A DNA stretch of 64,000 nucleotides from Phycisphaeraceae bacterium (GTDB lineage Bacteria > Planctomycetota > Phycisphaerae > Phycisphaerales > Phycisphaeraceae): positions 434,001-498,000 of the forward strand of contig JADZCR010000001.1 in assembly GCA_020851465.1 (NCBI GenBank). The letters are read 5' to 3'. Numbering within the stretch: the first letter of the stretch is position 1; every line of letters begins with the position of its first letter. Shown here piece after piece: positions 34,733-37,096 of this stretch. The notes under the pieces were generated by a model, which was given only the letters and a program-made list of their open reading frames with translations, did no database searches and had not been told where the DNA came from. Made by a program: the position numbers and the translations under genes.

Positions 34733-35031
34733 TCGTTGATGCCTTGCACACAGAAGCCCCGCCCGCATATCTCCGCCAACACGCGCATATCCCAACTGTA
34801 AATAAACGTACATTTGGGGCCTGCGGAAACACTGTGGCTTCCACCATTTCCCCACCCTGTGACCTGTGAAAAAGTTGGATAGCTGACCCATATCCATCGC
34901 CTGCAAGGCAAGCGGCTGTCCTCAACGAATTGCCCACAAAGATGTCAGCAACTCGCCGTAGTAAAGAGATGGCAACCTCTCTTTTTGCTTCCACAAGACC
35001 GTAGCCTGATTCGAGTTTTCGCTTCCTCAAC

Positions 35032-35059
35032 TTGACATCTTCGCGGACGTGATTAAAGT
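35032..35059 (+). promoter_or_regulatory. Candidate promoter of the cupredoxin-nirK operon
   Basis: A perfect TTGACA (35032-35037) is followed after 16 bases by TAAAGT (35054-35059, four of six -10 positions). Transcription would begin near 35066, giving a leader of about 115 bases. The -10 lies inside the first palindrome at 35053-35065, an arrangement expected of a repressed promoter. Confidence 0.5.
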
Positions 35060-35086
35060 CTTTAACGAAATTAAAGTATTTAATTT
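35053..35086. promoter_or_regulatory. Two tandem palindromes, candidate operator for the nirK operon
   Basis: Site 1 is TTAAAG-T-CTTTAA (35053-35065). Site 2 is an 8+3+8 perfect dyad (35068-35086, AAATTAAA-GTA-TTTAATTT). The shared TTAAAG cores start 18 bp apart. Site 1 covers the predicted -10 and site 2 the start region, so a dimeric repressor could block transcription. Nitrite reductase operons are commonly controlled by NO-responsive regulators such as NsrR or by FNR/CRP members. The sequence is not a canonical FNR box, and the regulator is not encoded nearby. Confidence 0.55.
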
Positions 35087-35179
35087 TGGATAAGTTGATC
35101 TGATTATCATTAAAAATTACCCAATACCGCGAGTAGCTGTAAACACCTTCAAACTACTAAGAAAAAAGGAGATACGTTA

Positions 35180-35950
35180 ATGACTAGAAGAGTATTTTTA
35201 CCAGTAGTCCTTGTAACTCTCGTAGCTTCTTCTTTTACTGCGTCCGTTTGGGGTCAGGCAGATCAGGGGCCGACTGCGACTGCTGCATCCAGCGGGGTAA
35301 CCATCTCTGGAACGGTGAATTTTAAGGGTGAGAAGTTCAAGCGTCGCACAATAAACACCGCCTCGGACCCGGCCTGTATGGAGCATGCCAGCCAGCCCCT
35401 TCTGAGCGAGGTCGTGGTCATCAATTCCAACGATACGCTCCGAAATGTGCTCGTCTACGTGAAGCAGGGGTTACCTGCGGACAAGAAATACGAACCCCCT
35501 GCGGAAGCATTTCTTGTTGATCAGGTTGGCTGTGCTTACACACCTCACGTGTTTGCAGTAATGACGGGTCAGACGGTGACCATCCGCAACAGCGATCCGA
35601 CCCTGCACAACGTCCATGGCCGGCCGACGGTCGCTAAGGAATTTAACGTCGCACAGCCAGTCAAGGGGATGGAAGAAAAACTGGTTTTCAAGAAACCAGA
35701 GGTGCCGTTTGCCATCAAGTGCGACGTGCATCCATGGATGACGACATGGTGTGCCATCTTTGATCACCCCTATTTTGCGGTGACCGGGGACGAGGGCACC
35801 TTTTCGATCCCCAACCTTCCGCCGGGTGAATACACCATCGAGGCGTGGCACGAAAGATTCGGAGTCAAGGAATTAAAAATCCAAGCTGCAGAAGGTGAGA
35901 AGAAAGAAATCGAGTTTACTTACGAACCTCCGACCAAGAAGGCTTCCTGA
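35180..35950 (+). CDS. Exported cupredoxin-like protein with carboxypeptidase-regulatory-type domain
   Basis: A 256-residue protein with a signal peptide (cleavage near VWG-Q, residues 23-25). The central domain (about 75-200) has an ordered type 1 copper pattern: His143 (TLHNVHG), then Cys181, His184 and Met187 in KCDVHPWM. The C-terminus (about 200-250) reads GTFSIPNLPPGEYTIEAWHE, a CarboxypepD_reg-like beta module. It is therefore a probable blue copper protein in the periplasm. The NirK gene starts 54 bp downstream behind its own AAGGAG site, so the likely job is electron donation to NirK (inference). A methylamine-utilisation-type or other electron carrier is the alternative. Confidence 0.8.
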   Translation: MTRRVFLPVVLVTLVASSFTASVWGQADQGPTATAASSGVTISGTVNFKGEKFKRRTINTASDPACMEHASQPLLSEVVVINSNDTLRNVLVYVKQGLPADKKYEPPAEAFLVDQVGCAYTPHVFAVMTGQTVTIRNSDPTLHNVHGRPTVAKEFNVAQPVKGMEEKLVFKKPEVPFAIKCDVHPWMTTWCAIFDHPYFAVTGDEGTFSIPNLPPGEYTIEAWHERFGVKELKIQAAEGEKKEIEFTYEPPTKKAS

Positions 35951-36004
35951 CCGTTCAATGGTTGTTTTTTCCCGGTGTATCGCAATTTTTAAGGAGCACT
36001 GCCC

Positions 36005-37096
36005 TTGAAACGCATCTCGTCTCATGTGATCCGTCGTACGTTCACGCTAACAGCACTTACTGTAGCTGTCGGGTTTGGTTTAGCTGGTTGTCGATCGGCA
36101 ACAAGCCGCACCACAGCAGAGGAAAAAGTCTCGCGCCCTGTTGAAAAAGCGGTGTTGACGTATGCTCCAGAAGTTCCCCCTCCAATCACACGTCGAACTC
36201 CGGCAACCGTAGTCACGCACCTGGAGGCCAGTGTTCAGACAACCGAACTGGCTTCCGGCGTGAAATATGCGTTCTGGACGTTCAACTCCCGCGTCCCCGG
36301 TCCGTTCATTCGCGCTCGTGTAGGAGACACGCTGGAGATGTACATCACCAATGTTGATGCCAGCGGTACGCCGCACAACATCGACTTGCACTGCGTTACC
36401 GGTCCCGGAGGCGGTGCCACCATTACCACCGGCGTCAAGGGAGACTTGAAACTGGTTCGTTTCAAGTTGCTCCACGCGGGGATCTTTGTCTATCACTGTG
36501 CTGCCCCGCCCGTGATGGACCATATCGCTAACGGGATGTATGGCCTGATTCTGGTTGAACCTGAAGAGGGACTACCCAAGGTGGACCGCGAGTTCTATGT
36601 CATGCAGAGTGAGTTTTATACAAACCCGATTGACGAAGACTCCGACTCGGATATCGCCACTTTCTCCCACGAACAGGGCTTGGCGGAAAATCCGTCCTAC
36701 GTCGTTTTCAACGGCCGCGTCGGCGCGTTGATGGGTGAGAACATGCTTACGTCCAAGGTAGGCGAAAAAGTTCGTATTTTCTTTGGTAACGGCGGGCCAA
36801 ACAAAATCTCATCGTTCCACCTGATCGGAGAAATATTTGACAACGTCTATCGCGAGGGGGACCTGATCAGTCCGCCTGCCAAGAGTGTGCAGACAACACT
36901 CGTGCCTGCAGGCGGTGCCACCGCGGTGGAGTTTGACGTTGAAGTTCCGGGTGTTTACACCCTGGTAGATCACGCGATCTTCCGAATCGAAAAAGGTGCG
37001 GTCGGTTTCCTCAAGGTTGAGGGCGAAGACCGGCCCGACATCTATCACTCGGTACAGGAGCCGACCCCATGCGAGGGATGTCTTGTGCATCCTTGA
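36005..37096 (+). CDS. nirK: Copper-containing nitrite reductase, predicted lipoprotein
   Basis: A 363-residue two-domain cupredoxin. Start is a TTG at 36005, fixed by AAGGAG 8 bases upstream. A lipoprotein signal ends in GLAGC (Cys29). Type 1 copper ligands are His124, Cys165, His173 and Met178; type 2 ligands are His129, His164 and His323; the catalytic Asp127 (TPHNIDLH) and His272 (SSFHLIG) are present. All residues needed for reduction of nitrite to NO are thus visible. The C-terminus ends in an unusual PCEGCLVHP tail with a Cys pair. With the cupredoxin gene just upstream it forms a compact nitrite-reducing unit. A multicopper oxidase identity is unlikely, because the type 2/3 cluster histidine pattern is absent. 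Confidence 0.92.
   Translation: MKRISSHVIRRTFTLTALTVAVGFGLAGCRSATSRTTAEEKVSRPVEKAVLTYAPEVPPPITRRTPATVVTHLEASVQTTELASGVKYAFWTFNSRVPGPFIRARVGDTLEMYITNVDASGTPHNIDLHCVTGPGGGATITTGVKGDLKLVRFKLLHAGIFVYHCAAPPVMDHIANGMYGLILVEPEEGLPKVDREFYVMQSEFYTNPIDEDSDSDIATFSHEQGLAENPSYVVFNGRVGALMGENMLTSKVGEKVRIFFGNGGPNKISSFHLIGEIFDNVYREGDLISPPAKSVQTTLVPAGGATAVEFDVEVPGVYTLVDHAIFRIEKGAVGFLKVEGEDRPDIYHSVQEPTPCEGCLVHP

Follow-up and report, generated by a model that had tools for sequence, protein, structure and literature searches.

In the window, a 64,000-nucleotide stretch of a Phycisphaeraceae genome, a cupredoxin gene (cup) lies directly upstream of a copper nitrite reductase gene (nirK), behind a promoter with two blocks conserved in an orthologous locus. 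We favour, at somewhat better than even confidence, a reading in which the two genes form an operon, an Rrf2-family regulator represses it at 35089-35108 and the cupredoxin serves as electron donor to NirK; as part of this reading, two TTAAAG dyads at the promoter arose when the -10 region expanded by 18 bp in this lineage, and are no shared operator. The features are as follows (positions in the window).

35031-35042, plus strand: -35 block CTTGACATCTTC, identical in the orthologous cup-nirK promoter of genome G115 (locus L034)
35052-35087, plus strand: two tandem 18-bp units of the -10 region, with both dyads inside; the G115 promoter is shorter here by about 17 bp
35053-35065, no strand: dyad 1, TTAAAG-T-CTTTAA (6+1+6), not conserved in orthologues (sequence, comparison)
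35054-35059, plus strand: predicted -10 TAAAGT, 16-bp spacer (promoter prediction)
35068-35086, no strand: dyad 2, AAATTAAA-GTA-TTTAATTT (8+3+8), not conserved (sequence, comparison)
35089-35108, no strand: proposed operator GATAAGTTGATCTGATTATC, 18/20 identical in the G115 cup promoter; a related 20-mer is also in the G115 norZ promoter
35166-35171, plus strand: ribosome-binding site AAGGAG of cup
35180-35950, plus strand: cup, secreted type 1 cupredoxin with a C-terminal CarboxypepD_reg-like beta-sandwich at about residues 199-248 (ORF list, profile, model, alignment)
35991-35996, plus strand: ribosome-binding site AAGGAG of nirK
36005-37096, plus strand: nirK, class II (AniA-like) copper nitrite reductase, lipobox LAGC at residues 26-29, TTG start (ORF, profile, ligands)
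37070-37081, plus strand: NirK C-terminal CEGC, residues 356-359 (comparison of planctomycete NirKs)

The gene pair and its copper proteins

NirK is a complete class II copper nitrite reductase of the AniA type. It scores 328 against the TIGR02376 cut-off of 296 bits, its closest PDB relative is gonococcal AniA (1kbv, E 3e-103), and the type 1 (H124/C165/H173/M178) and type 2 (H129/H164/H323) copper ligands and the catalytic residues D127 and H272 are all there, behind an N-terminal lipobox signal. The sequence-only reading had placed a complete NirK 54 bp downstream of the cupredoxin gene; both the gap and the completeness are borne out, and the pairing recurs. Among 201 genomes of the order this NirK type occurs in three, each with cup directly upstream; the G115 proteins are 73% (cup) and 81% (NirK) identical to those of the window. 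All three cup-linked NirKs share the CEGC end (found in 0/5 other planctomycete NirKs compared), possibly a metal or disulphide site, and all three lack the cytochrome c that is fused to four related planctomycete NirKs (L163-L166; 52-55% identical to the NirK core).

The cup product is a type 1 cupredoxin with a cupredoxin beta-sandwich, for which binding of one Cu, a blue colour and redox activity are predicted. The four ligands named in the sequence-only reading hold up across 77 homologues, counted without ten unrelated multicopper-oxidase loci: H143 and H184 are kept in 77/77, C181 and M187 in 75/77. No PDB relatives of the cupredoxin were found by sequence search; its AF2 model (pLDDT 87.5) matches amicyanin and pseudoazurin in Foldseek (probability 1.00, about 100 residues) and also a cupredoxin domain of a NirK. 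The proposed fusion to a CarboxypepD_reg-type domain is a real match, but one that falls just below threshold (PF13620, 31.6 against a gathering score of 32.3 bits) and covers part of the profile (31-80 of 82). Beyond the type 1 ligands, the family has near-invariant additional Cys and His residues (C66, C118, H123, H146 and H224), possibly for a disulphide or a second metal site.

This cupredoxin family is widespread (Planctomycetota, Ignavibacteria/Kryptonia, Omnitrophota, Acidobacteria and others) and is usually encoded near haem-copper oxidases: in flanks of up to 6 kb on each side, a gene for oxidase subunit I or II (COX1/COX2) lies near 50 of the 77 homologues, and 36/77 have, in the fetched flanks, a gene whose product is related to a large cytochrome c protein. 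The protein is thus probably a copper carrier of respiration, put to use here for NirK: the periplasmic cupredoxin would hand electrons to the type 1 copper of the lipoprotein-type NirK, probably taking the role that a fused cytochrome c has in related NirKs. The pair looks like a swap of a fused cytochrome donor for a separate copper protein from an oxidase-linked family. That the cupredoxin is instead a copper chaperone or general carrier merely sharing the operon is rather unlikely; the extra conserved Cys and His residues might bind another metal ion or form a disulphide, and homologues lie near CtaA as well as COX genes, but the full type 1 ligand set with an amicyanin-type C-x2-H-x2-M loop, the cupredoxin fold, the linkage to copper-dependent electron acceptors and the absence here of the fused cytochrome c all argue against it.

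Conserved and non-conserved parts of the cup promoter

The predicted promoter, TTGACA-16-TAAAGT, spans 35032-35059, and no Rfam riboswitch or leader was found in the cup 5' UTR. Orthologous cup-nirK promoters were compared between two loci, the window and L034 of G115, which align over CTTGACATCTTC and GATAAGTT[G/T]ATC[T/C]GATTATC, with L034 about 17 bp shorter at the dyads. The -35 block matches at 12/12 positions (2/1000 shuffles) and the 20-bp block at 18/20 (0/1000 shuffles). The arrangement of CTTGACATC followed by GATAA at 28-58 bp is found at this one place in the window's genome. At L035 of G112, the third cup-nirK locus, there are neither the dyads nor a site of the 35089-35108 type, and no Rrf2 gene adjoins it. 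The promoter is probably regulated, as the earlier reading of two tandem palindromic operators implied, but its conserved parts are the -35 block and 35089-35108, not the dyads.

Both dyads are present as first described, with the predicted -10 inside TTAAAG-T-CTTTAA and an 8+3+8 dyad after it. The idea that they are operators fared less well: neither orthologous cup-nirK locus (L034 or L035) has them, the very outcome that the sequence-only reading had named as refuting it, and no further copies exist in the window's genome, so that they were rejected as a regulon motif. That the pair is nonetheless a true operator for some local regulator, particular to this lineage and layered on or replacing an ancestral site, is unlikely. 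Dyad 1 covers the -10, the dyad centres lie 18 bp from each other, the genome has no other such pair, and both observed dyads arise in just 0.35-0.5% of dinucleotide shuffles (one dyad with 8-bp arms in about 2%, two dyads with arms of at least 6 bp in 2-4.5%). However, the two units of the tandem repeat (13/14 bases equal; 0/2000 shuffles as good) explain the presence of two dyads, which are therefore one event and not two independent ones; the block 35050-35110 is 79% A+T, making palindromes cheap; and, besides their absence from orthologous promoters, the lack of a second genomic copy means that there is no regulon. We keep to expansion of the -10 region for the dyads and to 35089-35108 as the candidate operator.

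In G115, a related 20-mer stands in both the cup and the norZ promoter (16/20, 2/1000 shuffles), and a search of the 4.4 Mb with up to 3 mismatches gave no other site; since these two sites supplied the pattern, what the search tells is that it is unique. A direct link from the window operator to the G115 norZ promoter was discarded as not significant (262/1000 shuffles), and the connection runs through the G115 cup promoter. Scored with a norZ-type PWM, the window site is a weak match, with p of about 1e-3 to 4e-3 per position (best about 1e-3). The norZ promoter of the window's genome has no such site; two of six further approximate operator matches in that genome precede RIC and a Nar/Nxr-like operon, in the cluster that holds an orthologous Rrf2 gene.

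That 35089-35108 serves Fur as a metal box, or belongs to some other regulator outside the Rrf2 family, is quite improbable: Fur is reported to act on norB/aniA in Neisseria and GATAA-N10-TTATC resembles the Fur box, GATAATGATAATCATTATC, but the spacing is 20 and not 19 bp, the only two sites in G115 flank an Rrf2 gene and not iron genes, and across the class norZ promoters with this layout go with the Rrf2 gene.

An Rrf2 clade beside genes for NO metabolism

An Rrf2-family protein is the preferred candidate for 35089-35108. The gene order in G115 is RIC-norZ on the minus strand, followed by an Rrf2 gene, cup and nirK on the plus strand, and when the 30 top-scoring homologues of this Rrf2 in the class are considered, 11 have norZ divergently adjacent. 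The norZ promoters in question share CCTTGACATCCA at the -35, which the CTTGACATC core of the window's -35 block matches, and a second site after the -10; expectation maximization on them yields the palindrome AATCTGGATATCCAGATT. A model of these promoters was built from sequence only, with the G115 norZ promoter in the training set and the G115 cup promoter outside it, and it ranks the G115 cup promoter second in the G115 genome (E 0.027). Across 397 genomes of the class, the best 30 loci were fetched and 30/30 adjoin this Rrf2 gene, with norZ or RIC on the other side in most, a figure that describes linkage and not an independent discovery rate because training loci are among the 30. The model's only match in the window's genome, C1:215022, was set aside as weak (E 0.08) and apparently inside a coding region.

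The proposed regulator passes the Rrf2 family models TIGR00738/PF02082 (107 and 109 against 73 bits), and the PF02082 cut-off is also exceeded in the window's own genome. It scores far below the NCBIfam NsrR equivalog (48 and 42 against 182 bits), and the clade is also below the IscR cut-off. Nearly all aligned members carry C-x6-H-x4-C-x2-H and not the three-Cys motif of NsrR; the E. coli IscR row of the alignment is C-x5-C-x5-C-x2-H. The operator differs as well, with AATCTGGATATCCAGATT in the norZ promoters and a GATAAGTT-type element at cup in place of gATGyAT-N5-ATrCATc. NsrR itself was thus ruled out by score, ligand motif and operator. No description of this regulator or site was found in the literature searched, which covered few subscription-journal papers.

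In another planctomycete family (L164:2480-2700), the gene for a cytochrome c-fused NirK and an Rrf2 gene diverge, with a strong norZ-type palindrome match between them; this Rrf2 is 41% identical and its motif is C-C-C-H, as in IscR. At L160:1900-2100, an Rrf2 of the same clade has a perfect AACCTGGACATCCAGGTT palindrome in front and adjoins an unassigned 154-aa ORF that looks haemoglobin-like by eye and has no Pfam match.

The window's genome encodes an orthologous Rrf2 at C1:44.7 kb (C1:44660), unlinked to cup-nirK, whose 57% identity is no proof of the same specificity; its control of cup-nirK is inferred. Nearby on C1 are also genes for NnrS, RIC and another Rrf2 and an operon for a Nar/Nxr-like molybdoenzyme, and norZ (81%) is on another contig. 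The sequence-only description of a self-contained nitrite-reduction unit was therefore too strong, since a Nar/Nxr-like reductase, NnrS, RIC and norZ are encoded elsewhere. NosZ was not found in this genome by TIGR04244. An NO/nitrate cluster at about 50-68 kb of contig 1 (L128:10448-L129:8062) comprises NnrS with DUF1858, RIC, an Rrf2 gene, cytochrome c, alpha and beta subunits of the type II DMSO-reductase family, and chaperone-like and MoaA-like genes. Elsewhere in this genome (L113:1880-2015), an NsrR-like gene is divergent from a second RIC gene across a 9+5+9 dyad, AATCGGTAT-N5-ATACCGATT, that differs from the operator of the norZ/Rrf2 group.

Under the favoured reading, cup and nirK would be co-transcribed as a two-gene operon from the TTGACA/TAAAGT promoter, and an Rrf2-family repressor related to NsrR and IscR would bind 35089-35108, expected to be transcribed early, and perhaps the -35 block as well, blocking transcription. 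NO or a related signal would damage the presumed Fe-S cluster of Rrf2 and lift repression, and in relatives norZ and NO genes of the RIC type would be under the same clade's control. Gene neighbourhoods and promoter patterns are best read as an NsrR-like Rrf2 repressor controlling nirK, norZ and NO-repair genes, and the linkage to norZ, RIC and NnrS suggests that repression responds to NO. More tentatively, and at somewhat less than even odds in our judgement, the planctomycete C-x6-H-x4-C-x2-H clade, with its two-Cys/two-His sensor site, may be an NO sensor not described before, which governs norZ and RIC, and in this lineage cup-nirK as well, by way of an operator that has no relation to the NsrR box.

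Comparison with known systems

Planctomycetes carry nirK and norZ, and the control of their NO production and removal is little known; a clade of regulators whose promoter signature is conserved offers a testable regulon and possibly a new Fe-S ligand set for NO sensing. NsrR as it works in Neisseria remains the best analogy for the clade's presumed mode of action. There, NsrR controls aniA (nirK) and norB (PMC1274295, PMC2924362) through the operator motif given above (PMC1274295). The two systems share an Rrf2-family regulator, an AniA-class NirK and, as in G115, linked and divergent genes for nirK and a quinol-type NO reductase; they differ in that the operator here is not an NsrR box, the regulator is far below the NsrR cut-off, the putative cluster ligands are C-H-C-H and not three Cys, and a cupredoxin is co-encoded. 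Compared with the [2Fe-2S] protein IscR, ligand spacing is nearly identical and the last C-x2-H is kept, whereas the clade has His for the middle Cys and its partners are NO genes and not Fe-S assembly genes.

On the donor side, pseudoazurin is a known NirK donor. The cupredoxin shares the type 1 site and fold of amicyanin and pseudoazurin, and the short C-x2-H-x2-M loop of amicyanin, but it is longer, with additional conserved Cys and His residues and the C-terminal CarboxypepD_reg-like sandwich. Finally, the fused-cytochrome NirKs (the Ralstonia type, and L163-L166 among planctomycetes) have a similar core and the same ligands as the window NirK, which has no cytochrome domain and carries instead the short CEGC tail and a separate cupredoxin gene.
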